Positions 7,720 through 51,429 of a DNA stretch of 64,000 bases are shown here, piece by piece. A program made the position numbers and the translations under genes. Source of the DNA: Apostichopus japonicus (lineage: Eukaryota > Echinodermata > Holothuroidea > Aspidochirotida > Stichopodidae); NCBI RefSeq assembly GCF_037975245.1, contig NC_092574.1:26766713-26830712 (forward strand), given 5' to 3'. Within the stretch, counting starts at the first letter, position 1. Each line of letters begins with the position of its first letter. The notes under the pieces were generated by a model. That model was not told where the DNA came from. It saw only the letters and a program-made list of their open reading frames with translations, and made no database searches.

Positions 7720-10700
7720 TCAGATTGACATCTCTTCATCATTAAGATCAAACTCTTCCTCTAAAGCTCTGTTTGATCTCAGAACAAGCTGCACCGGTTC
7801 TTCCAGAGGCAAATCTTCAATTTCTCTCAAATTGCTGACGCACATGTCAACCTCACCTCGCTGACGTGATGCGAAGCTGACCGATTTTCGTTTGGAGAGG
7901 CGGATAGATCTTCTTACTGGAGTGATAATCATCGTCGAGGGAGTAGTGTCTGATGTACGTCCCAGTGCCTGCTGGATCCTAATAGGGAGAGAAAATATCA
8001 ACAACATTTTCAGCTATAAACAGACCTTCAAAATTTGTCAAATATTGTGTATGTTTTCAATTTTCCAGATTTCCAAGACCTTATCAATTTTTTTCCCCAC
8101 TTGGCAGCGATAAATTTATCAATTCTTTGAATGCTTTCACAAAGTTAATGTTTCCAAACAGTGACATTCTTGTTGATCTTCAATGTCCTAATCCTCTGAT
8201 CAAGTGAAATTTTATTGACATCACACATGACAGAACAAAACAGATATTTAGTTACTTTGGACCTTTGGCTTTTGCCTGTTTACTTCCTTAGAAAAACATA
8301 TTAAATTTACCTAAATACCTAGTATCTTCCAAAATATAAAAGAAGAAAAAGAAGTTTTATGTATCATAACATAAGCTGCACATAACTTTTTATTATCAGA
8401 ATATGTTTGCTCTCATTTAGGCCTGTGCATTAGCTGATCTGTGTCTAAATTCAGGTCAATGCCAGTAAGAACTTGACTTTAACCAGGAGATTTTATGAGC
8501 ACTGTTTTTTTATAGCGAGTGGCTAAAATTGAAATATCTAAAATTGGTTGGTTCTGGATCAAACTACTCTAGGGAAGTTGGCCAGCATTTGTCCACAAAT
8601 TGGCTAACTTCCTTTATCTTGAACAGTTAGCTACTGATGCTTCACCCTGGTAGTCAATATCTATTCTATGATAGAGTTATAATTAATGTTTTATTTTAAA
8701 ACCCTTATGTTTGTACATATCTAGCAAATCCATAATTTAGTGAATGACAAAACTGCCAGATCTTTTCGCATCTAGTTAACAGTGAAGTGTCTCAGGAGAT
8801 GTTTACCTCATAAACACAATAATAGTGCAATATCAAATAATTTTAGTAAACTTTAAACAAAACTGGGAACTATATTTCAATGCAATTTAGAGAACTCAAT
8901 GTTAAGAGGTCAAGGTATGGTGTAGATGATAGCCTCATAACAGATTCTCTTGACCTTAGTATGCAATAATGTTGCTATGCAGTGTTTCTCTTGACCTAAG
9001 TATGCAATATTGCTGCTATGCAGTGATTCTCTTGACCTAAGTATCAATAATGTTGTTATGCATTGTTTCTCTTGACCTAAGTATGCAATATTGCTGCTAT
9101 GCATTGTTTCTCTTGACCTAAGTATGCAATATTGCTGCTATGCAGTGATTCTCTTGACCTAAGTATCAATAATGTTGTTATGCAGTGTTTCTCTTGACCT
9201 AAGTATGCAATATTGCTGCTATGCAGTGATTCTCTTGACCTAAGTATCAATAATGTTGTTATGCATTGTTTCTCTTGACCTAAGTATCAATAATGTTGCT
9301 ATGCATTTCTCTTGACCTAAGTATCCAATATTGCTGCTATGCATTGTTTCTCTTGACCTAAGTATGCAATATTGCTGCTATGCAGTGATTCTCTTGACCT
9401 AAGTATGCAATATTGCTGCTATGCATTGTTTCTCTTGACCGAAGTATCAATACTGTTGTTATGCAGTGTTTCTCTTGACCTAAGTATGCAATATTGCTGC
9501 TATGCATTGTTTCTCTTGACCTAAGTATCAATAATGTTGTTATGCATTGTTTCTCTTGACCTAAGTATGCAATATTGCTGCTATGCATTGTTTCTCTTGA
9601 CCTAAGTATGCAATATTGCTGCTATGCAGTGTTTCTCTTGACCTAAGTATCAATAATGTTGTTATGCATTGTTTCTCTTGACCTAAGTATGCAATATTGC
9701 TGCTATGCATTGTTTCTCTTGACCTAAGTATGCAATATTGCTGCTATGCAGTGATTCTCTTGACCTAAGTATCAATAATGTTGTTATGCAGTGTTTCTCT
9801 TGACCTAAGTATTCAATAATGTTGCTATGCAGTGATTCTCTTGACCTAAGTATCAATAATGTTGTTATGCAGTGTTTCTCTTGACCTAAGTATGCAATAT
9901 TGCTGCTATGCAGTGTTTCTCTTGACCTAAGTATTCAATAATCCTGTGGTTGATAACACAACTTGGCCGTTTGCCGGTGTGTACCTTTTAAAGTATGGTG
10001 TAGCATCCCTGACTTGGTACTTCACTGCTGACGATTCTTCATGTTCTCCCAAAGGACTGAGCAATTGAAAGCAGGATCTTCTTGATTTACGTGGAGTGGG
10101 TGTAGCTGGAGGTCCAGGAATAGTTTCTATGGAAACCTCTTTTGTCTCTTCCATAAGAGCCTGATGAAACCCAAAAAATGCATGAAAAAGTATCTTAAAT
10201 AATAAAATAAAGTATGCCTTTGGAAAAGAGTTACTGAACTGAAAAAGAAAAAAAAAAACGGTAAATTTCAACATACAAAAACAGTTTTTGTGTACGTCAA
10301 AACTGTATTTAGAGTACTAAGCAATATGCTAGTATTTTACTTAAGTTACAAATAAGCACTTTATGCTATCAAATTGATGAATGTTTCTTGCATATATAAG
10401 CAGAATCATTTACTAATATTTTCTATATAAAATTTGCTTCTATCCTCTAAACTGCAATCTGAATGTATTTTTTATTTTTTACTTAATCTTTACCCCTTGA
10501 TATTAAATATGTTGAATCACCTCTGGAATTATTTCATCAATGCTTTGTCCATTGAAGGCTTCTTGTACTGTTTTCCTACATTCCAGAAAGGATTCCATAT
10601 CACTCAAGTAGGGTAGTTTAGTCTCTATATTTGTTAGCCAATCAAATAGATATTCTGCTGGACAACCCTGTAAAATAAAAAAACAAAACAATGTTGATGT

Positions 10701-13700
10701 TCAGGAAATATCACAGTTGTATGTACAGTAATACATAGATCATATGCAGGCCTGCAAACCTAAAAACATACATACACACTGTACTGTCCAACATCACGAA
10801 AATGAAAGGCATATAATCAGGGCGTCCGTAGGTTGAATAGGTGTTTACATCAAATTCAGTTTGCTTGGTAACTCAATACCCCAAAATTGGTAATTGATAA
10901 ATTGGTATCACCCCCAAAGTTGATGTTCTATTCACCAAACCTACACATCTCTCCTACAGTGTACAGTACATATTGATGTTCTATTCACCAAACCTACACA
11001 TCTCTCCTACAGTGCACATATTGGTGTTCTATTCACCAAACCTACACATCTCTCCTACAGTGTACATATTGGTGTTCTATTCACCAAACCGACACATCTC
11101 TCCTACAGTGTACAAATTGGTGTTCTATTCACCAAACCTACACATCTCTCCTACAGTGTACATATTGGTGTTCTATTCACCAAACCTACACATCTCTCCT
11201 ACAGTGTTCATATTGGTGTTCTACTCACCAAACCTACACATCTCTCCTACATTGGTAATATTGGTGTTCTATTCACCAAACCTACACATCTCTCCTACAG
11301 TGTACAAATTGGTGTTCTATTCACAAAACCTACACATCTCTCCTACAGTGTACATATTGGTGTTCTATTCACCAAACCTACACATCTCTCCTACAGTGTA
11401 CATATTGGTGTTCTATTCATCAAACCTACACATCTCTCCTACAGTGTACATATTAGTGTTCTATTCACCAAACCTACACATCTCTCCTATAGTGTTCATA
11501 TTGGTTTTCTATTCATCAAACCTACACATCTCTCCTACAGTGTACATATTGATGTTCTATTCATCAAAACCTACACATCTCTCCTACAGTGTACATGTTG
11601 GTGTTCTATTCACCAAACCTACACATCTCTCCTACAGTGTACATATTGGTGTTCTATTCACCAAACCTACACATCTCTCCTATAGTGTTCATATTGGTTT
11701 TCTATTCATCAAACCTACACATCTCTCCTACATTGGTAATATTGGTGTTCTATTCACCAAACCTGCACATCTCTCCTACAGTGTACATATTGGTGTTCTA
11801 TTCACCAAACCTACACATCTCTCCTATAGTGTACATATTGGTGTTCTATTCACTAAACCTACACATCTCTCCTACAGTGTACATATTGGTGTTCTATTCA
11901 CTAATCCTACACATCTCTCCTGCAATGTATATATTGGTGTTCTATTCACCAAACCTACACATCTCTCCTACAGTGTTCATATTGGTGTTCTATTCATCAA
12001 ACCTACACATCTCTCCTACAGTATACATATTGGTGTTCTATTCACTAAACCTACACATCTCTCCTACAGTGTACATATTGGTGTTCTATTCACCAAACCT
12101 ACACATCTCTCCTACAGTGTACATATTGGTGTTCTATTCACCAAACATACACATCTCTCCTACAGTGTACATATTGGTGTTCTGTTCATCAAACCTACAC
12201 ATCTCTCCTACAGTGTACATATAGGTGTTCTATTCATTAAACCTACACATCTCTCCTACAGTGTACATATTGGTGTTCTATTCACCAAACCTACACATCT
12301 CTCCTATAGTGTTCATATTGGTTTTCTATTCATCAAACCTACACATGTCTCCTACATTGGTAATATTGGTGTTCTATTCACTAAACCTGCACATCTCTCC
12401 TACAGTGTACATATTGGTGTTCTATTCACCAAACCTACACATCTCTCCTATAGTGTACATATTGGTGTTCTATTCACTAAACCTACACATCTCTCCTACA
12501 GTGTACATATTGGTGTTCTATTCACTAATCCTACACATCTCTCCTGCAATGTATATATTGGTGTTCTATTCACCAAACCTACACATCTCTCCTACAGTGT
12601 TCATATTGGTGTTCTATTCATCAAACCTACACATCTCTCCTACAGTATACATATTGGTGTTCTATTCACTAAACCTACACATCTCTCCTACAGTGTACAT
12701 ATTGGTGTTCTATTCACCAAACCTACACATCTCTCCTACAGTGTACATATTGGTGTTCTATTCACCAAACATACACATCTCTCCTACAGTGTACATATTG
12801 GTGTTCTGTTCATCAAACCTACACATCTCTCCTACAGTGTACATATAGGTGTTCTATTCATTAAACCTACACATCTCTCCTACAGTGTACATATTGGTGT
12901 TCTATTCACCAAACCTACACATCTCTCCTATAGTGTACATATTGGTGTTCTATTCACCAAACCTACACTTCTCTCCTACAGTGTACATATTGGTGTTCTA
13001 TTCACCAAACCTACACATCTCTCCTACAGTGTACATGTTGGTGTTCTATTCACCAAACATACACATCTCTCCTACAGTGTACTGTACATATTGGTGTTCT
13101 ATTCACCAAACCTACACATCTCTCCTACAGTGTACATATAGGTGTTCTATTCATTAAACCTACACATCTCTCCTACAGTGTACATATTGGTGTTCTATTC
13201 ACCAAACCTACACATCTCTCCTACAGTGTACATGTTGGTGTTCTATTCACCAAACATACACATCTCTCCTACAGTGTACTGTACATATTGGTGTTCTATT
13301 CACCAAACCTACACATCTCTCCTACAGTGTACATATCGGTTTAAATATTGGTTATATGTGTGTTTTATTGTAATCGATTGTATGTACAGAGTCATGAATT
13401 ACTTGGTTTTATTATTGGTAATATGTGGGTTTTCTTGTTTAAGGTTGTATGTTCAGAGTCATGAATTAATTGGTTTTATAATTGGTAATATGTTGCTTAT
13501 ATTGTTTAAGGCTGTATGTACAGAGTCGTGAAGTACTTGGTTTTATTATTGGTAATATGTGGGTTTCATTGTATTCGGTTGTATGTACAGAGTCGTGAAT
13601 TACTTGGTTTTATTATTGGTAATATACGGATTTTATTGTTTAAGGTTGTGTGTAATGAGTCACGATTTCTTTTGATTTCCTCTTCCAACTGATCATTGGA

Positions 13701-15950
13701 AGATCAGTCAAACACATAATGATCCTCTTTAAGGATTCGGTTACATTACCTCATTGAGAAGGCTCTTGCAGGTTTCCATAGCTTCATCAACTGTTAGTAC
13801 ATTGTCGAGAGATGTTGCTTCTTCATCTTCCTCCAGGCTCATCCTTGATCTGGTAGACACTTTGGGAGTTTTCATAAATTTAGCTGCCCTCTTAGGAGTT
13901 TTTCCTTTAGCTATCAACCATTGTTCAAGTTTTTCTCTGCAAAGGAAAGAAGAGGTGGTCATCTCCCTACACAAATTTATTTAATAAAAGCAGGGATTTT
14001 CCTTACGAAATGGTGAATAATATAATGAGAAATGCTGAAATGTAAACAACATAATCTATGAATCAGCGGACTGCTGTATAACCCAGGGCATAACATAAAT
14101 CACTGGGTAAGTTGAATTAAGCCTTTATCTACAAATTTCCAAACTCAGTTTCAATGAACAAATGATTGTGAGCTGAATAGATAACAAGCAAAACATACCT
14201 CATGCTTTCCTGTGTTCCTTCCTGAGAAGTAGAAGGTCTTTCGTGAACACTTGGTTTAGTAAGACTGGTCTTGTGTAACCATTTATGGCTCTCAGCTCTC
14301 AATTTTCTTTGCTCTCCAAGGCCTCCATTTGTTGTTACCTTTGACTGCCTCCAGGGTCTTTCTCTCGTCATCCTCCTGTCCTTCCTCTCTGCAACTGAGT
14401 TCATCTTGTTTCCACTTTGCTCTCCTCCTAAAGTGTTAGCAGATCTCTTCTTAGCAGCTCTCCTCTTCACCTGCAATTCCCGTCTCAAGTCATTTTCCTC
14501 ATCCTCATCTTTCAAGTCTCTCTCTTGTTTCTCATGTTGAGTGTTTAGCTTCTTTCCAGTTGACAGGGTCAATGTTTCTCTTCTAGCATTGCTGGTATCA
14601 TTTTTGCTTACTTCTTGAGAAACAATTTTGGAGTCCCTTTTAGATCTAGAGTCCATCTTGACTTTACCAGTGGACAGGGTCAGTGTTTCTCTTCGATTTG
14701 TACTCTTCCTCACAGATTTACGATTCTCTTTTCCATTCATTCTCTTCTCAGTCTGTTGGGGAGTTCTCCTGGCAGAAGCTAAAGTCTTCCTGTAGTTCAG
14801 ATGTCTCGGTGATGTGTTGTAACTCCAGCTAGTCTTGAGATTCGACTCAACTAGTAATTTCATCTTCTCGCTGGCTTTGGAAGGAACTTTGCCTTTATTT
14901 TGTTGCATTGAAGTGGATCCAGCTTTAAATGGTTTCTTCGTGGAAGCTTTCATTGAGGTCTGCCTCTTTTTCTTCTCTGTCTTCCATTTCTCTAGTTTCT
15001 CCCTGCAAGGTGAACACAATATATTACAATCACCTGTTACATAGTAAGACATCTAAACTGAATGCTACATTAGTTTTCAAAGCCATTAAGCAAAATAACA
15101 AAAAAGGGGGAGGTTTGTAGAGGAAGAATGAGAAAAAGAAAACCCTTTCCTTCTTATTTGCTGCTGATAGCAGCTGGTTGTCATGGCAATCCAGCAGAGT
15201 TGTAACAAGTCACTTTATTTTGAGTAAATTGAGTTCAAGTTAAGTCTCTAGTACCAGTACTTTTCCTGACTCCATTCAGTGTGCTATCTTCTTTTTAAAA
15301 TTTCTTCATTTCGGAGAATGAGTGGCTTGAACCATTACTTGTTTGTGACAATGGACAATTAAGGCCTAGAATACTTTAATATCAAGTGTACAGTACATAA
15401 AGGTAAACTCAGCATAATTTGCATATCGAAGGGCACTTGACTTTGCTGTCATGAATACAGGCAAAATACAATCCCAGGCACCATTTCAAAACAATGCAAG
15501 GAGTAGGTATGGTACAGTAGGTTAGTGGCATGCCCATCAAAGCTGTTTCAGATGAGAAGAAAAAAAGTGTACCCTATCATTTCCAGTCTAGAAGTAAATT
15601 ATTTACAATTGTACAACTGGCTACACATTTATTTATGTAAAGATCTATACTGGTTGTTTAAACACTGACTAAATAGTATTTACTTTCAATAATTATTTTT
15701 TCTCAACTAAAACTTCACAAACCTAGAAACCCAGCTACATGAAATGTGAACAATTTTATTCTCTGGATAAGTTCTCGCTTCTGTAATAAACTGTGCCATC
15801 TCTAACAGGATCTTTTGCAAATATTGGGTTCCTTTAAATATGATCTTACCACATGGATGGAGACCTATACTGGTCTAAATTTGACTTTGTCATTTCTCCC
15901 TCTGACTTGATAACAGATGTTGAAACCATAGTTCTCTTTGCAGACTTCAT
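7720..15950 (-). CDS. CKAP2L: CKAP2/CKAP2L-like mitotic microtubule-associated protein, six exons
   Basis: Exons (minus strand) are 15950-15850, 15002-14199, 13936-13750, 10667-10521, 10160-9985 and 7978-7720. All junctions are GT/AG with compatible phases, giving 557 residues (vertebrate CKAP2/CKAP2L are about 680-745). An N-terminal EKLEKW motif at the exon 1/2 join resembles the family's N-terminal motif. A KEN box (about residues 125-127) lies in a Lys/Arg-rich, disordered exon 2, which also holds RRETLTLSTGK twice. Exon 3 has REKLEQWLIAKGKTPKR. Exons 3-4 join as CKSLLNE-GCPAEYLFDWL, matching the CKAP2 C-terminal helical domain. Exons 5-6 join as TPYFKR-IQQALGR, then TPVRRSIRLSKRK. Family members bind spindle microtubules and are removed by APC/C; KEN boxes fit that. 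Exon 1 (MKSAKRTM..., in a possible exon with 5' UTR from 15971) is the weakest part. The choice between CKAP2 and CKAP2L is uncertain. Confidence 0.85.
8936..9950. repeat. Minisatellite B, 40/41-bp unit, ~25 copies, in CKAP2-like intron 5
   Basis: Units start TCTCTTGACCTAAGTAT and come in two forms: a 41-bp form with GCAATATTGCTGCTATGCAG and a 40-bp form with CAATAATGTTGTTATGCA. They are interspersed irregularly. The array ends only about 35 bp from the splice donor of exon 5 (donor at 9984). The short Ser/Leu/Ile-rich minus-strand frames inside are products of the repeat. Confidence 0.95.
10925..13345. repeat. Minisatellite C, 48-bp unit, ~50 copies, in CKAP2-like intron 3
   Basis: The 48-bp unit contains CTATTCACCAAACCTACACA, TCTCTCCTACAG and TGTACATATTGGTGTT. 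As 48 is divisible by three and two frames lack stops, the array yields long false reading frames (16-residue repeat VFYSPNLHISPTVYIL), up to 722 codons. A higher-order repeat of 13 units (624 bp) is visible: rare variants near 11730 and 11920 recur near 12354 and 12544. A third partial block begins near 12849. A TGTACTGTACA insertion variant occurs at 13078 and 13276. Confidence 0.97.
13345..13655. repeat. Short tandem array D, ~67-bp unit, ~4.5 copies
   Basis: Direct repeats contain GTATGTACAGAGTC(A/G)TGAA and TTTTATTATTGGTAATATG. They lie directly after minisatellite C, about 95 bp downstream (plus direction) of which CKAP2-like exon 3 starts. The unit is unrelated to array C. Confidence 0.85.
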
Positions 15951-20102: not shown

Positions 20103-23015
20103 TCATTATTCACAAAGGTTTGACATGTCGTTGCAAACACCCACCAACTTGAGGTCATTCTGCATATCCTTTAAAACATTCATTTTCATAAAACGTGAGA
20201 AAGTTTGGCATTAGAAGTTAATTGAACACAGGACTCAACAATGAGTCTGATTTCCTACATAAGAGTAATGGTTTTGTTGCTGTTGTCATATATTTACCTG
20301 GATTTACCATTGGCCAAACTAAAAGAAGATTTTTGGTTACATTGACCTGTTTTGTTTTATCACTCTATGAGATTCAACAGCCAATGCCCAGGTATACAAC
20401 TACCAAGTCTGAAGTTGACTGGTCTGATGGTTTAGAAGACATCTGAGACATTTATAGTTTGGCCTTTGAGTTACTATTACGATATTTGACATTTAATATT
20501 TTAAGTAAAATTGTAGGATGGAAATATTTCTTATAATAGTTTTGGCCATTTTGTAGTTTGGGACTGATTGACCTTTTAATGTCGTGATACAGAGGTTCCA
20601 TAGGGCTTGCCAAGACATACACCATGTTTGAATATAAGAAGTCAACAAGCCTGTTTGCTTAGGAGAAATTTGAGACACTTTCAAATAAATTTGGCCACCT
20701 ATGAGCTTTGACCTCTTTGGAATATGTGACTCTTGGCTTTAAACATTACTTGATATGATATGAACTTTGAGAATCTGATATTCTATTATTCTACATGGGT
20801 TTGAAATGTTTCAGCCAACACACATCTTAATTCCTACTTCTGACTAAATGTTTAAATAAACTATTAAACTATTTAAGATTGGTTATTTAATGATATAAGA
20901 CAACAAGTTCATATGACTGATATAAACATGAAAAAAAGACAACAAACTGTAAAGTACTCTTTAAGATTCTTCTCTCTTTTTATTTTTATTTTCCTCTGAA
21001 AAAAATTGTGCAATTCTTCTCTGAACCTCTGCTTATATTTGTGCTATGACAAAGGTTATATGACGTAACATACATACAAAAAGTGAGTTTGATATAATAA
21101 ATTAAAAGTACATGATTGGAAGGTTGTTACCTATAAGTGGTTTAATAAAAAGCAGTACAAGGACATATACATGTATATTATATAAGTTTTATCAATAGGA
21201 ATTACACAAAAACCACCTACAAGGAGTGGTGTCTTTTGTATTGTACAGTACCACATGCAACTTCCAACCAGATTCACCCATTTTCCTAAATCCATGTTCT
21301 CTACAAAGTTTATACAGTGTTTTTATTCTTCTTCTTCAAGAAACAAGATTTGGCCAGTAGTCAGTCTTAACATTTAATGACAATAGCAGATTCAGCCCTG
21401 ATTTAGCTATGCAAAGAAGAGACTAGCCACATGCACTTTTCAACTATGTTCGCCAAAAAAAAAAAAAAAAACTTCAGGCACCAAATTTCCTTTTCTTAGA
21501 GGCAAAAGACTTTCTCATGAACTTAAACATTTGATGTGAAATGGCATAGGATCTACTTCACAATGTTATGAGCAAAAAGATCTCTTTAAAGACAATTGCA
21601 ATGACGATGCCCTTCACATTGATCCATGGCTTAGTTTGGTCTTTCCGCAAAAATGCAACAATTTCACAATTTGTGTGCACTTTATGTGTGCAGGACAGAA
21701 TTAGTTAAAGTTCACTGTATAAATGGCATAAATCAGGGTGCCTCAGGATACAAATACAGGTTTCCTTCCTTTACTTTATCAATCTGTTACATGAAGAACA
21801 TGTTGACTACCATAACATTATTGAAACTAAAATGTTTGCATCTCAAAGGATATTGGACAGCAAGAACAAATAAGACCTGTTAAAACAGCTGCATGCTTTT
21901 GTTTACTGCCAGATCTAGAGTAATATCAGATTCAAGACAGATAAAGGAAGAAATAAGCCTCAATAATTAGATATTATATATTAACTTTAACAGAGGTTGC
22001 AAACTCACAGGCCCACTGAGCACCGCTTTGGGACTCATGACCTTTTGACCTAAAAATGTGAATTAAAACTGGCTGATGTATTAAAATATATTAAGAAAGT
22101 GTATTGATTACAGGTGTGCACACAACAAAATTTTACAAAATACAATGGATATAGGTGAACACATACATATTAGTTATCAAATAGTACCTTTTGTTCAAAC
22201 AGCTTAGAAATAATATAGCAAACACACACACAATGTTAAACATGATAAAATCTTCTACATATTGCATAATAAATAGGGAATAATAGGCCTATCCCCTAAA
22301 ACTCTCTCCTTCATTTAGCAGAGCAAGATAACGGCATTTTCATACTGAGTTTTATTGACCAAAGTTTACTAGTTGATATATAATTCATTACATCTAAATA
22401 TTGCTTGAAATGAGGAAAAGTGAAAATTATTGTCATTTTAATATGGGCTTTCATTTCACTAGTTTAATTTAAAAAATCATTTTAAAAGTAAGAAAGGTAT
22501 TGGGTTATTTTATTCAATTCATTGCCAAGAGATAACGCTTTGTGCGTTGTTGAAGAAATCCCTAGTGAAATCTAGAAATCTAGTGAGGTAATTATAACAA
22601 GTTTAAAGATGTTCTGGCACATACTGAAATGGTTTGAAAGTTTATTCATAAAGTATGTAACAGATTTCTTAGATTTTTATAAAGGTTTTATCTCTACTTA
22701 AGGATATGATACAGGTTATATCCAGTGCACCAGATATTTCAAGAATTTATTCCAAAAATTGTCAGAATTTTCTTTTTTAATTAAATAGGTTCTTTCTGCC
22801 CCCCTCTCAAAAAGCACCAGGCCATCCTCACAGAAAAAGTCTAGCCAAACCCCTGTCTTGTACTCTCATGAAAACTGATTTTCATCCTCAACATTTATGA
22901 CCAAAAGGCAAACAGAATCAATGTCTTCCTAAGATTTCCCATCTTTTTCTTTATTACCACTACTGTCTAAGAATTAAATGCTGAAATGGCTGTTTCTCAG
23001 AAAAGTTGCGGCCAC
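20103..23015. other. No gene recognised
   Basis: Nearly 3 kb of AT-rich intergenic sequence downstream of the URAD-like gene (which is on the minus strand). Its short frames look random. An A-run is near 21450. Confidence 0.4.
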
Positions 23016-24069
23016 TTAAACAGCATCTCTAGCAGACATTTCTGTGTGACTGCACAGTTTAACATTTGCTATTCCCATAAGAACTTCCTCTTGTCGTGAA
23101 TGTTTCAATCTCAACTGCAAACCTTGTACTATTGCATGCCTCTTGCTTTCATTGACACAGATCACAAAGGGAAAGCCAAACTTACGAGTATACTTATCAT
23201 TCAAGTCTGTGATGAGTTCAAGGTCATCCGAGGATAACGTTAGAAGACCTGCTCTTCTGCTTGGTTCGTTGATGTCTCTAAAACTATTACTGGCTATGGC
23301 AAGTCTGGAGGGCAGATCAGGGTAGCATCTTAACAATCCTTCCTTACCTATTTCACAAGAAGAGAAATGAGCATTTGCAAAACATAGCTATATTAAGTCT
23401 GTATCAAATTGAAAGGTTTGAGAAAGTTTTGAAGGTTTGTTGATGAAAAATTTCAATTTGGACACCACAAGAGGATGACAGGGAGAGTAATTCTATTTGA
23501 AAAACCATCATTAAACCTGATTCCTGGCATGGAGTCAAATTTATCTGTATTTTTGGTATTCCAATGGTGTCGAGAGATAGGGTGACTCAGTTTTGCTTCA
23601 TTCTTTAAATTCCCCTGGATGAGGAAGCTATAAACAGCTTAGTGGCTTTTAAAATGGCCATACAACCACCCAGTCAGTGCAAAAGTTTTATGATTTACAT
23701 GGAGTGTACGACACACCCTGTTTCAGCCTTTGTAATTTTGCCTTGATACGATTTAACTTTCTCATAACTTCCTACATGGGTGAGACACTTTCATCCAAAA
23801 AGCTTTTCATTTGACTTCTAATAGTTGACACTTGTGTACACTTGACACAACTTTAGCAGTTGTATGCTAAATGGAGACTCACCCTGAAAAGGAAGATTAT
23901 CCAGAAACTTACAGAGAGTTGCGTGTAAATCCCTTACGCTACAGAATGGTCTATCAGACCAGGCTGCTAATGGTATCATGGGAGTCTTAGCAACAACATT
24001 TGCCAGATAGTCACCAAACTCTTTGTAGCCTAAATTGTTGATGTCTTCAAGAGATTTCACTTTAGCCAT
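23016..24069 (-). CDS. URAD: URAD-like OHCU decarboxylase homologue, active site altered
   Basis: Exons 24069-23883 and 23347-23016 join in phase 1 (FQG-KEGLLRCYPDL) and give 172 residues; human URAD is 173. Family features seen are WSDRPF near 37-42, the LLRC.PDL motif and KFGFPFV. URAD decarboxylates OHCU to (S)-allantoin after uricase and HIU hydrolase. Known catalytic His67 and Glu87 (zebrafish numbering) align with Tyr71 and Pro91, with identical spacing, and the C-terminal substrate Arg161 aligns with Glu. This suggests a pseudoenzyme or a diverged function. The C-terminus is DAV, not a PTS1 peroxisomal signal. The ATG lies in good context (GCCATGG); a possible acceptor (ATATAG) just upstream suggests a 5' noncoding exon. 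Exon 1 is within segmental duplication copy A; exon 2 is outside it. Confidence 0.9.
23659..23836. repeat. 178-bp dispersed repeat, copy 2, in URAD-like intron
   Basis: Second copy of the repeat at 19925-20102, same plus-strand orientation. It lies inside the only intron of the URAD-like gene and ends next to the start of duplication copy A. Confidence 0.8.
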
Positions 24070-24084
24070 GGCAACAATTCCCCT

Positions 24085-25699
24085 ATATGCAAAGAAAGAA
24101 AGACAGAAACACCAACATACAATACTGAAACCTCACATGCATAATGTATTCAAAATTGAGCAGCAAGCATACAGTTTAACTAGATTCACCGGCATGAACT
24201 GAGTTTATTAAAATCAAACTGGATTGATCATTCCAAGGTTTACTGGTAATAGTTTTCTTCAGGTACAAATTAATGTTTGACTGAAAGTTTGTTTTTGCAC
24301 CATCAGCAACCAGAGCTGAGAAGATATTAATACAACTTACAAGATCATACTGTACAATACCACTATCCCTGTTTTGTTTTACTTAGCAAATTTGCAAACA
24401 AGAGATTATGTTCTTGAATCCTGAATCCAAAGAAACATAATGTTGCATCAACTTTGAGTAAATCTGAAGCTTAATAAAAGACATTGGAACCAAGAGACAT
24501 TTTTCCCATGACATGTACTTTCTTCAAAATATTCCTTCAATACTTGAATGTCAAAGACAGCAGGTTTGAGTAGTGCCAAGAAACCTTCCATAAGCAAGAC
24601 TTACCTGTACCTTCAAAATACATGCAAGGATACAAGCAGTGGTTCAGTACATTCATGAAATATAAATTATCATTTCTAAAAATTGACTCCACAAACTTAC
24701 AAATTACAGAAAAAAAGGAATGATTTCCAAAAAGCCATTTTTGTACTTAAATCATTGCTTTAGGCATACTGTACTTATTCATTGTTAAGTAGGCTACTTA
24801 AAAAATATATTTGCTACCTACTGTTACTATGAAGTAAACAACATATCACCAACTTTGTATAATTTTGTAAGCCTACTATAGAGGCAAAAACTGCATCATT
24901 GAAGTTTAAGAAAACTAGGAAAGGGAAATTCCAAAGATTTTTCAAAACAATTAGGAAACAATTTAGATACGGTACCTTTAAATTATACCCCATTGATATT
25001 GGGTATGAATATTATATTTGTATAATTTCTGAAAGCTTTATGGATATTGTTTCAGACATTTCATGTTAACCTACATTATAGCCTACCATGCACTGAAGAT
25101 GAGGTGCAATGAATTTAGCACGCAAACTCTTGTCCTACATTCTCAGTTTAACTTTAAAGGCATTGAAGAATCGCCCAAACAGCGTGCGGCCATCTGGAAA
25201 AAGTCAACTTTCCATTGCTTGCAAGTGACGTTTTGTTTGTGTTGCTACAAAATGCAGACAGTAATGAAACATGATACCTTGTTATCTTTAGCTGGACCTG
25301 AGATGTCGGTCGCTGTATTGTTTGTACCAGAGCCAAATATACGACTCTGGTTTGTACACTGTGCTGTGGGTATTGACTGCAGCTGTATGTACTGACTATA
25401 CACTAGTGTCTATGTACCGATGGTAGCAAGCTGTGTGTGTGTATTTTCTGGGATAGATGGTGGGATAGATGGAACAGAACACTTCTGTTACAACTCATTC
25501 GAAACTAGGTCAGATTACCGGCATTAGGTGTTTCTTTTTACACGAGTCTTCACACCCTTTAATTGTATCTTTTACTGACATTACTGTGTTCTCACAATCT
25601 CCGTAACCATTTCATTGTTTCAAGTTTACAAGATGTTTTAGGAATAAGATATGGCTCAATATGTGAACATTTAGGTTTACGGGCATGCTATCATGATGT
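24085..25699. other. Noncoding interior of duplication copy A
   Basis: No gene recognised. A 110-codon plus-strand frame at 25063-25395 also exists in copy B, but all four differences between the copies change the amino acid, which argues against coding. Confidence 0.5.
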
Positions 25700-25708
25700 A
25701 AACAACAA

Positions 25709-25976
25709 CAAAGTGGCTATTCTTACGACTATTCGTAAGAATAATTTCCGATTGAGCATGCGCAGTTGCTATTTTTATGACAGGAGTACTATTTTTTACG
25801 ACCAGGAGTAACAATAATTTCCGGTTAGGGTTAGGATTGGGGTTTAGGGTTAAAGTTAGGGTTACCCCTACTACATGCGCAGTTGCTTTATTTACTTTAC
25901 TACGCTTGAATTCGCCCTTGTCATAAGAATAGTTTATAAATAATTGTTACGACTAGTCGTAAGAATAGCCACGGCC
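25709..25976. mobile_element. MITE with 9-bp TSD and TTAGGG-like core, copy 2
   Basis: Same family as 18619-18874. It is flanked by AAACAACAA at 25700-25708 and 25977-25985. Copy B of the segmental duplication keeps the single, unoccupied AAACAACAA at 49848-49856, which proves insertion after the duplication. It contains an extra telomere-like unit compared with copy 1. Confidence 0.92.
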
Positions 25977-27498
25977 AAACAACAATGGCTTATCTAATTA
26001 AATTATGGCCTACACTAGCCGTATACTGGCATAGGACCACTGATCTACACTAACTGGATAGGCCGCGCGGCTCCGTTTGTGAAGCAGCCGGAAGTGACTC
26101 AGCGGCCATGTTGGGATATTCAAAACATCACCGCACGCACATACAGGGCATACTGTACGTTGCTATGTCGGTCGGTGGCCGAGAAGGTGATGCGAAGAGA
26201 TGCCAAGGAAGGGAAGTGAATGTCGCAGAAACAAACCTTATTGATCAAGGAAGTGAAGGTGAACATTTGAACCCCTGAGAAATATGTGTTATGCCAGACT
26301 AAAATGGTTAATATGCCTATTTTCAGTGCAGGAAAAGATATGGAATGGGTCGTCTGTACAGAGACAGACGCTGCAACTGCATTGCAATACAAAGTCTATG
26401 GTATACGTCGGGCTAGGAACTTGAGTGGCATCCCTTCCTCCATGGTTAGGGCCTTTTAATTTCAAGAAAAATGTTAAGCGTTTCTTCTAAATTCACTTTA
26501 AATTGGGGGAAAGAATATCATAACTGGACGAGGCTACACCATCCATGCAACAAACTACATGTATCGCTATCTAGTACTGGGGAGGGCAGATATTAAATTT
26601 TGAGGTGGCTCGCAGGGTTACAAAATTTGAGTTAATTTCCATCTAGAAACTAAAAATGCGAGTTCCATGATAAATAAAAAAAATAGGAGGGAAAAATTCC
26701 ATGTGTTCTCAGGAAAAACTTGTCGCATAGGGTTTTTGCATGCGGCTGGGGTCTTAAGGCAGTGTGTCCAGTCTAGTAATACAGTGGCGGCGGAACCGGG
26801 GGGGCTTGGGGGGGCTCAGCCCCCCAATAAAAAATGTTGAGGGGGCAAATGCATGATAAGCCCCCCCAATATTTACCAAGGCTCCGAAACGTGCATCTGC
26901 CCATTTTTCAATGCATACTTGTCGATCTGTCCGATGCACACGTATGCTCTATACAGGTAGGTGTAATAATTTTAGTAATTGCTGGGGGACCATCGGCCCG
27001 TCCCCTGGCTATAGACCACATTGTCACCCCAACCGCGTCTTCACGCGGTTGGGAAGCAGTGAAAAGTGGAAGCAGTGAGTGTGAGTACCGGTAAGCGTAA
27101 CACAACTTCGTCTTAGGCAATGACTTGCCTCATTTCAGCCAGTTCTCCAACATCCCCTTACTTAGTGACGGAGCGTCCATATATACAGTCAGGGGGCGGA
27201 TGCCCCCCCCCCCTGACGGACTCAAATGGACTGCTGGCGCCCTTTTCAGCTTTTCACTACTTTTTACTTATTCGCGATTTTTGACTATTTTATTGCGCTC
27301 TCATATACCTATTGACATTTGTCATATTCTGTTGGTTTAATTTTCCGACAAAATGGCGACGACACCTATTTATTCTCCGTTTATCTGCAAATTAGCAAGG
27401 CCCCGGAAAGGGTCATTTCCTGCAATCTAGGAAGTATCTTTACTCAAAAATTTTCTGTACGCTCCGCGCCAACCTGTGGTGGCGCTCCGCTTAGATAG

Positions 27499-28644
27499 TG
27501 TAACGCGCCGTCCTCGGTGGTGAGCGCAAGGAAGAGTGGAAATGCGGGAACACAGGAATGAGGCTGTCGACAGGAGATATTAAAGTTTACCCGTTTATTT
27601 ACGATCAATGTACATGTCAAGATGGTGCACAGTGGTCGTGCATTACAGAGGCAATTATTAAATACGAAACCAGGTTTTAACAAATGCTTAGAAGTCGGTG
27701 AAGTTAAATACAACACTGTATATTACTAATGGCGGGTCTCGACACGGAGGGCAGAACGATAGACTTCGGCGCTGAAGATTGGGCTATGGTGAATTGCGGC
27801 GCAGTCGGCGGATTGGTGAACGGCGGCGCAGTTGGCGGATTGGTGAACTGCGGCGCGGATTGGTGATCGGCGGCGCAGTTGGCGGATTGGTGATCAGCGG
27901 CGCAGTCGGCGGATTGGTGAACGGCGGCGCAGTTGGCGGATTGGTGAACTGCGGCGCAGTTGGCGGAATGGTGAACAGCGGCGCAGTCGGCGGATTGGTG
28001 AACGGCGGCGCAGTTGGCGGATTGGTAAACTGCGGCGCGGATTGGTGATCGGCGGCGCAGTCGAACCGAAGTGTTGAACCTGGTCTTCTAGGTTATTTTA
28101 CTCGTCTTCCGGTCCTACTTCCTGGGCTGTTCCACCACTGTTTTTGCCAATAGAAGACTCGTTCGTCTCCTAACTCATGGTCAGAATCGTTCTACCCCTC
28201 CTATTCCGAGCCGGGAACCGCCCCTCGTCCGAGCCCGCAGTTGCTTTTAAACAGAAACTACTTCCTATACCTATAACGTGTGAACCTACACTTAAACCTA
28301 TTAGAAACATAAACCACGCCCAGTCTACAACCATCAACCAATAAAACACAATTAAATACGACATGCGTGCTGGTTAAGATTTACCCAGACCTAACATTTT
28401 TGGCCCCCCGGAACGTAAACTAGACGTCCTACTCAGTGACCTCCAAAATCGGTCAACAAGAGAGAATTCCCCCTTAACAGTTGTTCATAAATCAAGCAAG
28501 TGACACCCTTATACGGTTTTATCTAATAAACAATTCCCGTAAAGCGTCTAATAATGTAAAGAATCAACCCAAGTTAAAACATTTGATTGGAGAAAATACA
28601 TGTTAACGCTAACGACACACAATGAGCTTTGACGTGTCGTTACA
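27499..28644. mobile_element. Probable solo LTR (1,146 bp) nested in a hAT MITE
   Basis: The insertion starts TGTAACG and ends CGTTACA, flanked by ATAG at 27495-27498 and 28645-28648. TG...CA ends, short imperfect inverted termini and a 4-bp TSD fit a solo LTR of Ty3/gypsy type. It is longer than most and contains its own minisatellite. A non-LTR origin cannot be excluded. No protein-coding remnant is seen; an AATAAA lies near 28340. Confidence 0.65.
27780..28070. repeat. 27-bp GC-rich minisatellite inside the solo LTR
   Basis: Tandem units of about 27 bp built on CGGCGGCGCAGT(T/C)GGCGGATT followed by GGTGAA. About ten copies, some shortened. In one plus-strand frame it reads as NGGAVGGLV repeats, which is an effect of the 27-bp period rather than a gene. 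Confidence 0.9.
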
Positions 28645-29813
28645 ATAGTGTCGAAAGCGCCCCTACAGACCATTCTTGCCCTCCCTGACCAATACTCTAG
28701 CTCCGCCACTGCCCTTACTACACTCAAAAACATCATTGCGAGAACACTACGAGTAATAGCTACTCTCTTAAAAAACCATCGAATATACAAATTACAATGT
28801 TTTTACAGACTTTTACGTGCAATCTGAGAAATTGCAGGCTTGAGACCCATATTTTAGGGCTGGGTATTCGCAGCATAAAACACTCGGAAAGTGCCGTTTC
28901 CGGCCATTTGGGGGTTTGAAAAAACCCAAAATTTTCTCGTACACTCCGCCCCAACCGATGGTGGCGCTCCGCTTAGTTAGTCTCCACACATTAGCCCCCC
29001 CCCCCAATAATTTTTCCGTTCCGCCGCGCCTGTAGTAATATATGGACGGTCGTTGTCATATGCGCGGTGATGTTTTGAATATCCCAATATGGCCGCTGAA
29101 CAACTTCCGGTGACTTCACGGCTCGCTATACAATCACCGTACGCGCAGCCTATCCAGTTAGTGTAGATCAGTGCATAGGACTAAGGTAGGTCCTGACTAA
29201 ATTAAGGCCTACGCTAGTCGTAGGCTGGCCTAAGTTAGCTTATCATCATGGCACAATGAAGTTACGAATTACGGCCTGATAATGAATAAACTAATCCACT
29301 CCTAAGTAAGGCCGCTATCTAACAATATGACTGATTGAAAAACCATTATATAAAACTCAACCTACAGCACAATTACCACGAATAGGCAAAACTCGTATCG
29401 CCAGGCCGAAACTGGGAAATTACAGTCATGAGTAACACTAACAGCTATCGACTAACAGCTATGTAAAACATTGTGTGTTTACTGATCTACACTAGTTTAC
29501 GTACGTACCAGGGCACAGATATCATCGGAACGGTCCCAAAGGACTTGAAACCAGTGACCATTTTGCAGCATTGAAGTAAGCTAATTTTAGAAAATTTCGT
29601 ATACAGTTAGTAGTTGGGGTGTTACTGTGGATATAAGTACGTTGATGCTGTTGAGATTGGGCTAGGTGGGAAAGAGGGTATGGAAAGACCGAGGAAGATG
29701 GGGAAAAAGTTTTGAAGGGAAAGGAATGGGTTTGGACGAGTGTAAGGCCGGGTGTGTCAGAGTTTTTGGATGGATCCTTACTCGCTATTCAACACTGACA
29801 TGTTAGCTATACT

Positions 29814-30170
29814 CAAGGGCGTAGGAACCGGGGGGGGGGGGCTGTAAAAAATAAAGATGGGCGGAAGTATCATTCCCCCCCCCCTGCTTCGCAAGTCAGA
29901 AAACCCCCTTTTCATTTCCAAATGCGAAAAAAAAATCTCATTTGGAGCACCAAATTGCATATAAGGCCAGGTGAAAATGCAAAATTATATACAAAAAGGA
30001 GTGGGTGGGTTGAAGTGTGCTATATTGCACCAAATTGCATCTGAGGCCACCTAGAAATGCAAATAAAAAGCCAAAGGGAAGGGGGACACCCTCCCCTTAG
30101 ACCCCTCCCCAGGCCGGCCATCAGTCTTCAGCCCCCCTCCCCCACTCAAAAGTACCTTCCTACGCCACTG
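29814..30170. mobile_element. hAT-type MITE (357 bp), older than the duplication
   Basis: Same family as 2969-3207. TSD GCTATACT lies at 29806-29813 and 30171-30178. The identical insertion with the same TSD is in copy B at 50537-50894, so it predates the segmental duplication. Confidence 0.9.
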
Positions 30171-30672
30171 GCTATACTGTTGACAGTGGCGTAACCAGCG
30201 GGGAGAGGGTACAAAGGGATACCCAATCAAATGTCTTGCACCCCCACTTGCTCCGAAAATGACATTGGTAATCTAAAGAAATGGACGAAATTTACCAGTG
30301 CATTTATAGGTCTTCTGTATAGACCCCAACTATTGCACGTTATCATGGCAGAGTTTCTTGAGATTACGTTATCGACCTGCCTTGGTCGTATGTCGTAACA
30401 TCACCTCTTTTCACTCATTGGTCTGCAACGCTTGCCACATATTTTTCTTGCATGAGGTTCTTTTGTGTGAACGCTGTGTGATTATAACTACATTATAGAC
30501 ATAGGACATACTTCCACACAGTGTTTACACAAAGAGCCTAATGGTGTTAAGAAGCTATACAGGCTAGCTAATTGCAGAGCATGAGGTTGATTTACGAACG
30601 TGGCAGGTCGATTACGTAATCACAAAACTTTCCTAGCTATAGTGTGCTATAATTGGAGCAGGGAGTTGTTAA

Positions 30673-31249
30673 CAAGGGCGGCGGAACCGGGGGAGGGGGC
30701 ACAGGGGGCACGCGCCCCCACTTTTCCTTAAAAATGTGCCCTTTTTCTACATAAAAATTGAGGTGTCTTAAGTTAGCAAGAGGCCAGGGAACCAGAATGA
30801 ACACTCAGGAAGGGCCGTTTCCGGCCATCTGAGGGGTTTGTAAAACCAAAAATATTCTTGTGCGCTCCGCGCCAACCGATGGTGGCGCTCCGCTCACATA
30901 GTCGTGCATACAACTTTGCAAATCCTGGTTACGCCTGTGCCGTTTAATGAATTTCTGTGGGTCAAACTCAAAGCTATTTCGAATGGGAAAAAATTTGTTA
31001 AGATATTAACATAATCCTTGTTTCCCAATTTGCACATTGGATATTGGAGTGCTAGTATATATGCATATTTTCCGTGAGGTGGGGGGGGGGGGGGGCGTTG
31101 ATGGAGTGATATGTATACGCAAATAAGATAATACAATAAGAATTATAAAGGTCACTAAATATAAGGCTGCATCAGTCCAATCGAATTTCTGCAAAGTGCC
31201 ATTTGATGTCGGTGCCCCCCCCAGATTAAAAGTGATTCCGCCGCCCTTG
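30673..31249. mobile_element. hAT-like element (577 bp) in copy A only
   Basis: Ends CAAGGGCGGCGGAACC and GATTCCGCCGCCCTTG form an inverted repeat. The flanks GTTGTTAA and GTGGTTTA match at 6 of 8 positions, so the TSD is imperfect. The two-box module is present in reverse near 30810-30896. Copy B lacks the element but has a 32-bp palindrome at the corresponding site (51390-51421). Confidence 0.8.
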
Positions 31250-32640
31250 GTGGTTTAACCAGTTCGCGGTTGACGTTGATTCGTAATTGACGGGTATTCT
31301 CAATCTATACCAGCCAATTGCGTCTCAAGTTAAATATTATCCTTTTCATTTTGCTTTCTGTCTTCGCCATCCCCCCCCCCCCTTCGCCACAAACTCTACC
31401 CTACGAGATAACCAGCTATACCATGCTACTTGTAACTCCCTGCTTGTATTTTGTGTATGTTTAAAACCTTATACCATTGTTTTATCATCCGAAACTAATC
31501 CGATATAAGTTGTTATTGGAAGCTGCAGCATGATATATTACGTAATTTCAAGATGGCACAGGTGAATTCACACAGAATGATCATTCATTAGAATATGCCT
31601 AACCGAAATATTGTTTCCCACGACTTTACAGATTTCAGTCGATTAATGTAATAAAACCAATGGACTATGGCCCTTGACAAACACTTTTGTAGTGGCTGAA
31701 TGAAGGAAGCCTAATTCGATGAAACTGACATTCATATACACATTTATTTAAACCATAGTTAGAGTAAATCATAGACAATGGGATAGATTAAAATGTACTG
31801 ATGAAAGAATAGTACAGAAAAAAAGACGACAAAACAATTGAAATGACGAAAAAATGAACCTAATTGTCAAAATCCCATCGCTATACCATGTTTTCTAATT
31901 TTTAAGTTTATCCAAATTCTAAATTTGATTGGGCCAATTAAAAATATTACTGAAACCAGAATGAAAACGCATTGAGGTTTCGATGGCTTCATTGCACTAG
32001 ACTTCTGCTTGTCAACCAGAAACAGCTGTTACAATATTAATTAATGTCCCGAACCAATATGTTGATGTACAATAGACTAAGGCATGGTAAACCCAGGTCA
32101 GTCTATTGTACGTGGCAATACACACCTCCACCAAAAACAATATGATTATTTTACTCAATGTGATGCATCCACACACCAAATATTAGAATTATCAACGATT
32201 CCCATCGTTAGATATCATGTAAAAGGCTTTTCAGAGTTTGACCTCTGGTGACCTCAAATGATATTTGACAAGCAACAGGATTCTTGTACACAATATGGCA
32301 AATCCATATACCATGTAGGCTATATATGAAAAGTATCCATGAGTTCTACCATAAGAAATCATGTTTTAAAGGTTTTCGGGCCTGACAATTGTTTTAAATG
32401 TACTAGTTATTTTGCGACCGTGACTAAAAGTCTACTATCCAAAATGCAAAATTCACTCGCCACTATGACTGCTGTTCAAATCTCCATAGTACTGATCTGC
32501 AACATCAATACTTTCTATGAACAAAATGTTTAGCACTTAGGCAGTTGCATGGTGCTACGTAATTGCACATTGGAAAATTATGTTTCTGTGCAGTATGAAA
32601 TTTAAACTTTGTTCCACCAGAAGTAAGGGATTAACTAAGT
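31250..32640. other. Duplicated noncoding sequence
   Basis: Matches copy B 51420-52493 and 54024-54330. No gene recognised; only short unsupported frames. Confidence 0.45.
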
Positions 32641-35600
32641 AAAAGATGTCGCAGAATTGTAAATAGGCAGCTAGACCTACTGCAGTGTCTCAATCAAAAT
32701 ATGAAACATCTGCAAAAATACCAACGGAGATAGCATGGCTTCTGTTACATTCGCGCGTTTTCTGTGCCTTAGTGTATTCGTTATGGATGTGCCTGATCGT
32801 TTAGTCTGCGGTGATGTGATGAGTGTAATTATGTGGATCGAGTTTTAGGTTTCTAGCTTGGAATGTGATTTTAATTCTGCGTCGAGTAAAGATATTGTGT
32901 GATAAGTGTGTGAAATTTAAGGAATTAGAGGAGCTATTGAATAGCTGTAATTGTGAATGGACTGAAGTCAGGAATAGTAGGACTGTAACTAGTGCAGTTG
33001 TCGAAAGGGATTTTTGTGAGGGTGTTCCAACTTGTAATGGATTCGACGTGTTACCTGTGGAGGAGTTGCGTGATGTTGGTGATGGGAATGAAGTCTCCCC
33101 AAGAGAGAAATAGTGTGTGGTTAGTAGTGGACGAAGAACGTGGTGATTGTGATGTGATTGACGATGGAAGTGTGGTTGAAAACAGCAGTCAGTGGGACGG
33201 GAGAAGTCAAAAGGAAGAATGGTCTTGTGTGAAGATTCACTGAAGCGGTATGTGGACCGAAAGTTCTGCAGGCCGGATAAAGCAAAAAAGGGTCAAGGTA
33301 CGTTGCCAGGTGCCAAAATCCAGGATGTCAGTGAAAGGGTTAAAAAAAAATTGTGTCAAATGAGGAGGTGGCTGTGGTCCAGGTAGGTACCAATAATGTG
33401 CAGAAGGAGTCACTCGACATAATTCGGTCAAGGCATCACGAATTGTTGTGTCGCCTATAGCATCGACTCGTGCTAAAGTTGTCATCTGTAGTGAGTGTAG
33501 TCTATTGCCAAGATTTGACAACAAGGTTCAGTCACATAAGATGGTAACTTGGAATGATTTCTTGCATAGTCTGTGTTCTGACTTCGGCTTCACATTCGTT
33601 GACATGTTGTCATGTTTCCAGGGTAGGGATTTGTTTGCCAGGGATGGGTTGCACTTAGCTAATACTTGGGCCTTGTTGTTTGGTAGGATGGTGAATTACT
33701 CTGTTGAACAGCTATGTTTAAACAAAATTGGGGGGCGATGGGCAGGCATACATTTTGATAAGGATTATATTTCCGTGGAGGTGCTTATAGGCATTTTGAA
33801 AGCAAGGAAAGTGATATAGTCATAGTTCTAACATTATCAGGAGGCATGCTAAGGTACATAGTTTCAGGATAAGCTGAAGATTGTCTTTACCATGGTAGCT
33901 TGAAGTATTCGTAAAGTTTTGCTGAATTTACTATTCTTCTTGAGGATCTGAAACCTGATGTGTTTGGTATCACAGAATCTTGGTATATAGGGAGGACATT
34001 GGAAGTGCTGAGGTTTCCTACCCGGGGTATGTTGTGTATCGTCAGGACAGAAGGGATACTCATAATGGGATCGGTGGGGGAGTTTTATTGTATATAACAT
34101 ATAACATATGTTAGGGATGATATTGTAAGTGTTGAGAAATCTCAGTTGCAAGGTTCTTTTGTAAATTCTGTCTGGTGCGAGTCGCCGAGTTGTCCACAGA
34201 CAAGAGGTTCGGTGATGTTATAACTATTGGCGTTGTTTACCGTTCTCTTAACAGCAGCGAAAATAATGATGTCTTGCTGTTTGATACATAATTAGAAAGG
34301 CTGCTAAAGGTGATGTTGTGTTATAATGGGCGACTTTGATTTTCCTGACATTAATTGGATAGATGGTTCAAGTAGTAGGACGGGTAATAACTTTCTAGAT
34401 GTTGTGCAAGATTGCTTTTTACATCAGCATGTTACTTTCCCTACTGGGGGGGGGGGGGGATAACATCCTGGATCTTGTTTTGAGTTCTGATCCAAGCAAT
34501 GTTTTTGATTTGACGGGTCTAGGAAAACTAGGAACTAACGATCATGATATACTAGCTTTTGATGTTGTTTGCAAGGTCGTACATTCTGTTAGCAAGGAAA
34601 AATTCTCCGATTTTTCGAGATCAGATACATAGGCAATTGAAACTTTACTAAAGGGTACATATTTGATTAATTTGTTTAGAGATATAAGTGCTTCTCAGTC
34701 TTGGATTTGTTGAGCTGATAAGTTACATGTCATTATGGAAAATCATGTTCCGTGGCAGAATTGTCGTCGTAAAAGCAGTATGTCTTCCTGGATGAATAAG
34801 AAAGGTAGATGTGCAATTAGGCAAAAATGTAGAATGTGGAAGTTGTTTAGGAGGACTAAATCTGAATCTCTTTTGGCCAAGTTTAAAATTCATCAGCTGA
34901 AGGTAGAATGCTTAGTCTCTGTTGCAAAGGTGAATTTCGAAAATAACATTGCCTAAATATTAAGGATAACCCACAGGCCTTCTTTTCTTATATGTCAGAT
35001 CAAAGCAGAAAGTTAAAGATGCAATTGTTTTTCTGAGGGCACTACAGGCTGATAATATAGTTACTGATAGTCAGGATCTTGCAGATCTTTTGAACAACTA
35101 TTTTGTTTCGGTTTTTACAAGGAAAGATACGAGTAGTTTTCCAGATTTTCAGGGAGGAATTGATGGTCCTAAACTGGATACGGTCTTATAGTTTCGGATG
35201 AGGTTTAAAAGGTCTTAAAGGAGCTGCTTTGTCTAAATGTTTCTAAAGCTTCTCGACCTAATGCAATCCATCCGTATTTGTTGAAGACTTTTGCACACCG
35301 TTTCTGCGTTCCACTCTCATTGGGTTTTAGTAAATTTATGAATGATTGGAGATGTTCTAATATTACCCCAGTTTTCAAGAAGGGTGATATAAGTCTAAGC
35401 CCTGTAATTACAGGCCTGTTAATCTCACTAGTCTTGTTTGTAACGTATGGAGTATACTGTTAAACAGTCTATCGTCAATCACTTCAGCAGTCTGTCTTTG
35501 ATCAGAGAGTCTCAACATGGCTTTTGTCAAAAAAGGTCATGTCTCACTAACATCCTTGAGTTTATGGAAGATGTAACAAGCTCACTAAATAGGCAGAAGT

Positions 35601-36440
35601 CTGTAGATGTTGTGTTCCTGGATTTCCAGAAGGCCTTTGATAAAGTTCCCTACCAGCATCTTTTACTTAGGCTAAAGAGTGTGGGTTTCAATAGGAATTA
35701 CTCTCTTGGATCGAGAATTGGCCAGCTTGGTAATAGGAAACAGAAGGTGGTTATTAAAGGCTGTGCTTCTTCTTGGCAGGACGTTACTAGTGGGTTTCCA
35801 CAAGGGTCTGTTTTGGGTCCCTTGTTGTTTGTTGCCTATATAAATGACATTGACGGAAATATTTTGTGTATAGCTAAGACGTTTGCTAATAACACCAAAT
35901 TGTATTCTGAGGTCCCTTCCAAAAGCAATTCTGAGAAATTTCAAACGGATTTGGATAAGGTTTTTCCTGGTCTCAGGGATCGATGGCTAATGCTTTATAG
36001 TATTGGTAAATGCAAAGTGAGCATTTAAATAGTAGTAACCTTAAGTATACCTACCATCTTAATGGTGTAGAGTTACAGGAGGTCTTTGTTGAAAGAGACC
36101 TGGGTATCTACATTGACTGACTTATCTCTGCAACCTTCTAAACATTGTCTTGAAGCTGCTCGGGCTAAAAGAGGTGAAAGGGTTTTAGGTATGATAAGAG
36201 GAACTTCAGTTTTCTGAAAGAGGATATAGTAGGTAGGCTTTATAAGCAGTTGGTTAGGCCTCATTTGGAGTATGCTGTGCAGGTTTGGAACCCATATTTG
36301 ATTTCCCCGTGAGTCTTTGATTGAATTCTACGGATGCCCATAAGCTTATTTTCAATTGCCAACAACCTATTCTTATGAGGCTCAGGCGTAAAGCACGTGT
36401 TATTTACTAGGCTGTTCGTTGGGAGATACGGTAGATTATG
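32640..36440 (+). mobile_element. Degenerate CR1-like LINE with esterase-type ORF1, copy A
   Basis: Plus-strand relic with frameshifts. An ORF1-like part (about 32.78-33.8 kb) begins MDVPDRLV and ends with an SGNH/esterase-type signature (GRDLFARDGLHL near 33.62 kb), as found in ORF1 of some CR1/L2 elements. An endonuclease-like part follows (ITESW near 33.97 kb). The reverse transcriptase (35.45-36.03 kb) has DFQKAFDKVP and GFPQGSVLGPLLF. C-terminal LINE sequence continues to about 36.4 kb. The poly-G runs at 34445 and 33728 disrupt frames. Copy B has the 5' part only. Confidence 0.8.
35447..36028 (+). pseudogene. LINE reverse transcriptase fragment, catalytic motif lost
   Basis: A 193-codon stretch with fingers/palm motifs of a non-LTR reverse transcriptase: SQHGFCQKRSCLTNILEF, VFLDFQKAFDKVPY, and QGSVLGPLLFVAYINDI. 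The catalytic FADD box reads FANN (in KTFANNTKLYSE), so both aspartates have become asparagine and the enzyme would be dead even if the flanking frameshifts were ignored. The stretch is absent from copy B. Confidence 0.88.
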
Positions 36441-37089: not shown

Positions 37090-37217
37090 TGGAACAGGTG
37101 CAGGTCTGACACATGGAATCGATAAAAGAAGCGGTACGAGTTTTAAACACAAAAATTTACTTTATTATACGAAACCATAAGTTACTTGAGGCCTCCTACA
37201 ATAATACTTAATACAAA

Positions 37218-37248
<31 letters not shown>

Positions 37249-47994: not shown

Positions 47995-48020
47995 TAGTAG
48001 TATGCTAAATGGAGACTCAC

Positions 48021-50528: not shown

Positions 50529-50536
50529 GCTATACT

Positions 50537-51421: not shown

Positions 51422-51429
51422 CAGTTCGC

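Follow-up and report, generated by a model that had tools for sequence, protein, structure and literature searches.

What becomes of a urate-pathway enzyme that keeps its fold and loses its active site? The question is raised by a 64,000-nucleotide stretch of the sea cucumber Apostichopus japonicus (the window; C14:26766713-26830712 of an assembly of 671.6 Mb in 35 contigs). Here, a two-exon gene without internal stop codon (positions 24069-23016, minus strand; copy A) encodes a 172-aa homologue of 2-oxo-4-hydroxy-4-carboxy-5-ureidoimidazoline (OHCU) decarboxylase (URAD), and a second full copy (copy C) lies 166 kb away. The window protein is homologous to an enzyme but lacks the catalytic residues, and we consider it probable, judging from sequence, that it is a pseudoenzyme derived from the animal OHCU decarboxylase and kept to serve some non-catalytic function.

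Exon 1 of copy A (23883-24069) runs from the ATG to a CAGG/GTGAGT donor and encodes residues 1-62 plus the first base of codon 63; the zebrafish URAD fragment matches here. It is followed by a phase-1 intron of 535 bp (23348-23882) with a GTGAGT donor and an ATAG acceptor, and by exon 2 (23016-23347), which carries the YPDL, INEPS and FGFPF motifs and the stop codon. On the same minus strand, a polyadenylation-like AATAAA (22950-22955; a motif match only) lies 60 nt after the stop. The Pfam family OHCU_decarbox (PF09349) matches the copy A protein with E = 2.6e-27, zebrafish OHCU decarboxylase (2o70) with E = 2.3e-31, and the NCBIfam model TIGR03164 with 97.3 bits against a cut-off of 96.25. 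The protein thus has the profile and fold of the family, and by these matches its relationship to OHCU decarboxylase is far beyond chance. The original prediction had described a URAD homologue with intact splice sites and frame, which the re-derived gene model and the retained fold motifs confirm. It had also claimed unchanged spacing through the catalytic loop, with Tyr71, Pro91 and Glu90, and this is what the zebrafish alignment shows, being free of gaps from about residue 10 to residue 158.

The active site was compared with prokaryotic relatives. A genome scan gave at least 581 confirmed relatives among at least 596 pattern matches, and the 80 that matched the window protein best were aligned; a column was called fixed when at least 76 of the 80 had one residue (n = 24 columns). 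Copy A retains 17 of the 24. The seven that it lacks are E27, H71, S88, E91, Q92, I161 and R165, with H71Y, S88I, E91P, Q92S and R165E among the changes. By alignment, Tyr71 corresponds to zebrafish His67, Pro91 to Glu87 and Glu90 to Glu86, and the R165 column to Arg161 by position; we take His67 and Glu87 to be catalytic, Arg161 to bind the substrate, and Ser84 and Gln88 to line the site. The catalytic His, present in 79 of the 80 homologues, is Tyr71 in both full copies, and the catalytic Glu and the Gln after it (each 80/80) are Pro91-Ser92 in both. The substrate Arg (80/80) is Glu in copy C, whereas in copy A its column, like that of I161, falls inside a tail derived from a deletion; a pairwise alignment with zebrafish opens a one-residue gap near the C-terminus, so that Arg161 stands opposite Thr164 of copy A. 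Zebrafish URAD itself retains 21 of the 23 columns covered by its fragment, departing only by Leu to Ile and Leu to Met. The PDL and FGFPF motifs, next to the pocket, are kept in the window protein. We rejected a gap shift that would make Glu90 the catalytic Glu, because the family alignment has no gap at this place and two fixed residues nearby, Ser and Gln, have been lost as well. One of the 80 prokaryotic proteins, a Spartobacteria URAD (L005:1486-1998), has Leu for the catalytic His of HPDL and keeps the other four site residues.

Copy C encodes 180 aa, with YPDL and INEPS as in copy A, and the two copies are syntenic on both sides (85-97% identity by block, 96.6% across the gene). Past the common GIANVK, copy C continues into a C-terminal helix that resembles the family: the fixed columns there have Ile and Leu, and the position of the Arg has Glu. 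It retains 18 of the 24 fixed columns, the six lost including all five site residues, and scores 103 bits on TIGR03164. The last 13 residues of copy A are not family sequence: this tail (23016-23057, minus strand; 13 codons and the stop) has its counterpart in copy C about 350 bp beyond the stop codon, in the presumed 3' untranslated region. Relative to copy C, copy A is short of about 420 bp where exon 2 ends (the matched blocks, which share 3 bases in A, are 418 bp apart), and because the end of copy C is family-like, we infer a loss in A and not a gain in C. The C-terminal end of copy A has been replaced, though the frame is open. On this comparison, Glu has truly replaced the substrate Arg in copy C alone, which probably is the principal functional copy; its C-terminally altered sister, copy A, may or may not still work. 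The absence of the catalytic His and Glu and the substrate Arg, as originally predicted, holds, while the C-terminal Glu read in the window copy belongs to the deletion-created tail, and only copy C has a Glu within a family-like helix.

Is there a canonical enzyme elsewhere in the genome? A PF09349 search gave two matches, one to exon 2 in the window and one to another exon 2 at C14:26956114-26956416. The zebrafish URAD protein gave eight at 38-41% identity, all at C14 26.79-26.98 Mb within one 186-kb stretch beginning in the window: six first exons, all open and each with the identical GTGAGT donor, and two second exons. These make up the two full copies, A and C, and four exon-1-only fragments (copies B, D, E and F). 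Neither search of the 671.6 Mb found a canonical HPDL URAD, only this local family with a dead site, and the canonical URAD that had been predicted elsewhere thus did not appear. The pseudoenzyme idea itself stands.

Copy B has an intact exon 1 in the window (48021-48207, minus strand) with three nucleotide changes relative to A, two of which alter amino acids; no exon 2 was found for it. It sits at the edge of a duplicated block (47993-59042) that matches 23855-40060 in pieces at 86-96% identity. Copies B, E and F end at one common intron point, D ends no more than 8 bases away, and all four have stretches of their 3' neighbourhood in common; therefore, one truncated unit was probably copied several times. 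Exon 1 of A and B differs at 3 of 187 sites, compared with 16/231, 12/701 and 18/692 in three upstream stretches, which settles nothing. Other candidates were discarded. Open frames of 55-78 codons behind the exon-1-only copies, some common to several copies, offer no convincing chimeric second exon. For a canonical exon lying unnoticed close by, the window was scanned for the motifs in six frames and by tblastn with the zebrafish protein; its sole FGFPF stands beside YPDL. An HPDL at 21740 (minus strand) is without family context and matches at chance level (E = 19). In viral contigs, none of 60 pattern matches was a relative by tblastn.

The losses are unevenly spread. In copy A, all five site residues fall within the seven losses among 24 columns (hypergeometric probability 0.0005, or 0.017 with only the catalytic His and Glu and the substrate Arg); for copy C, with five of six losses at the site, the probability is 0.00014. 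When eight non-site pattern columns (67, 72, 115, 119-123) are dropped, the values become about 0.005 for A and 0.0014 for C: the contrast between the site and the rest is weaker after this correction, yet it stays. We also simulated uniform neutral change, starting from the present coding sequence and ignoring insertions and deletions: at none of eight loads did more than 1 of 4000 runs lose all five site columns and no more than two of the remaining 19.

The marks of a pseudogene, a broken frame or broken splice sites, are absent: copies A and C are open, with donor and acceptor intact. Over codons 1-159 the two differ by 7 synonymous changes per 103 sites and 2 nonsynonymous changes per 374 (ratio 0.079; Fisher p = 0.00045), and this mostly synonymous divergence argues for purifying selection. 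With the intron rate (13 differences over 534 aligned sites) taken as neutral, the expected number of nonsynonymous changes is about 9, against 2 observed (Poisson probability about 0.006). The original prediction was to fall if the ratio of nonsynonymous to synonymous rates (dN/dS) lay near 1; it is about 0.08, for the local copies A and C. Retention by selection, as in a pseudoenzyme, is accordingly indicated for this one copy pair. The exon-1 copies alone give dN/dS values from 0.27 to infinite over 15 pairs, with too few changes for a usable ratio.

A tree was built from the window protein, zebrafish URAD and 36 of the 80 prokaryotic sequences. It groups the window protein with zebrafish URAD (support 93/85), and the plain reading of these sequences is a fast-changing URAD of the animal type. 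OHCU decarboxylase is a dimer in known structures. In the course of events that we favor, and with no uricase detected in the genome by a profile and a protein search, the urate pathway would have been lost or shortened in the lineage, freeing the URAD fold, and the all-helical protein would have been kept as a non-catalytic binding or scaffold protein. With Glu for Arg, Pro for Glu and Tyr for His, the pocket could hardly hold the anionic OHCU, so that a different ligand, or a function in protein-protein contact, would be expected. Loss of URAD activity may be tolerable, since 5-hydroxyisourate (HIU) and OHCU convert slowly without enzymes, as summarized in PMC3646786. More tentatively, we suggest that URAD outlived uricolysis here, its whole active site being replaced as it turned into a non-catalytic binding protein kept by selection, akin to the change from HIU hydrolase to transthyretin.

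Several points weigh against a retained pseudoenzyme. The selection test is based on nine changed codons in one copy pair, the seven synonymous changes are all in exon 2, and the synonymous rate (7/103) exceeds the intron rate (13/534; p = 0.03), so that chance may have inflated it. An open frame alone is weak evidence: among simulated frames, 47% were stop-free with 2 of the 19 non-site columns changed, and 11% still were with 7 of 24 changed. The count of kept columns is inflated, as the 80 rows were chosen by two patterns taken from an alignment with the window protein at its head; one pattern permitted His or Tyr at the catalytic position, and the conservation of the columns in the patterns, including GFPF, is partly an effect of this selection. 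The C-terminal end of copy A is lost. The branch of the window protein (3.94, compared with 1.16 for zebrafish and a median of 0.62 over end branches) also fits relaxed constraint, and the tree program flags the position of such long rows as unsure. Exon-wise genome searches may miss genes with short exons. The uricase profile PF01014 had no match in the genome at E <= 0.001 (three candidates scored) and the mouse uricase protein none at E <= 1 (no candidates), but uricase exons may be shorter, and such an empty answer without a uricase-positive animal genome as control shows nothing. As controls, PF01014 matched Bacillus subtilis and Haloferax volcanii, two of 14 named genomes, the mouse query sequence matches PDB 43dy, 23bt and 4mb8, and the protein search does work on this genome, in which it detected the URAD exons at 38-41% identity.

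Some of these points would also be expected of a decaying relic, a gene left without purpose after uricase loss, whose active site changed first, which local duplications then broke, and which is heading toward a functionless pseudogene. The two empty uricase searches fit this account, as do the lost end of the C-terminal helix in copy A, the reduction of four of the six local copies to exon 1, and the very long branch. The hominoid precedent counts for it as well: loss of Uox followed by pseudogenization of Urah and Urad, as outlined in PMC5138847. We nevertheless regard decay as unlikely, since the frames of both full copies are open, the deficit of nonsynonymous relative to synonymous changes is about 13-fold, and the losses are clustered on site residues instead of being spread.

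The apparent constraint on the coding sequence and the kept PDL and FGFPF beside the pocket could also reflect a changed enzyme, in which Tyr71 and its neighbours catalyse another reaction on another substrate in the same pocket. With none of the five fixed polar site residues left, Pro in place of Glu91, and residues 83-88 forming the least certain part of the structure model (predicted local distance difference test, pLDDT, <50), this is the least probable of the accounts considered. A regulatory role is very unlikely too: the species would have a canonical URAD, missing from the assembly or unrecognised in it, that pairs with the dead protein. Dead activating paralogues are documented in trypanosomes, as partners of S-adenosylmethionine (AdoMet) decarboxylase and deoxyhypusine synthase (PMC5201418 and PMC3663545, as summarized there), and lend this idea a precedent. 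However, the Pfam profile and the zebrafish protein found no HPDL URAD in the genome, though copies at 38-41% identity were detected, and no uricase was found either. A retained pseudoenzyme thus remains our preferred explanation.

Elsewhere in the window, a plus-strand gene within 40060-47993, with open frames 43841-44452 and 45869-46225 (neither with a Pfam match), is proline-rich and has a hydrophobic stretch. The repeated unit that contains it bears a URAD exon-1 fragment at its 3' side and is also found at C14:26.83-26.98 Mb (L091-L107); copies B, D and F are accompanied by blocks of it, mostly at 90-97% identity, and E is so in part. Between duplicated blocks lie mobile-element fragments (52947-54065, minus strand; 35444-36025, plus strand) with integrase domains and a reverse transcriptase domain. 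Long tandem arrays at 10920-13340, 8945-9940 and 4336-5685 have units of 48, 41 and 50 bp, and a 746-codon open frame in the 48-bp array seems to arise from the repeat itself. An open frame at 7723-8013 (minus strand) weakly resembles the CKAP2 C-terminus (E = 0.026) and, slightly more strongly, an antitoxin profile (E = 0.0023), both below cut-off; any name is tentative. The frames 9930-10316 and 14132-15052 near it have no Pfam match. The region 60836-63999 (minus strand) holds two long open frames (655 and 416 codons) with no Pfam match above cut-off.

Overall, the window protein resembles OHCU decarboxylase (PF09349, TIGR03164, zebrafish 2o70) in profile, length, the ungapped alignment, PDL and FGFPF, and about 39% identity to zebrafish, and differs from it, with the site roles presumed as above, in lacking the catalytic His and Glu, the loop Gln and Ser, and the substrate Arg. 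The dead form is the sole URAD that the Pfam and zebrafish-protein searches found in this genome. Since it passes the curated 'equivalog_domain' cut-off of TIGR03164, profile-based maps of urate-pathway genes would enter a dead enzyme as though it carried out its step. Among the open-licence papers listed, titles and abstract openings showed no dead URAD. Among known systems, the AdoMet decarboxylase prozyme is likewise a catalytically dead paralogue of a decarboxylase, although its active partner is known, whereas no active-type URAD was found here (PMC5201418, in summary). The co-opted uricase of reptilian skin is, as PMC10517255 outlines it, a urate-pathway gene kept outside its usual role, yet it is uricase and not URAD. 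Transthyretin, unlike the window protein, has a known ligand, and it comes from a different enzyme. The fold of transthyretin and HIU hydrolase differs from that of URAD. The likeness lies in the same three-step pathway and in the passage from enzyme to non-catalytic role that took HIU hydrolase to transthyretin (PMC4324301, in outline); if our interpretation is true, a second member of this short pathway has become a pseudoenzyme with a new role.
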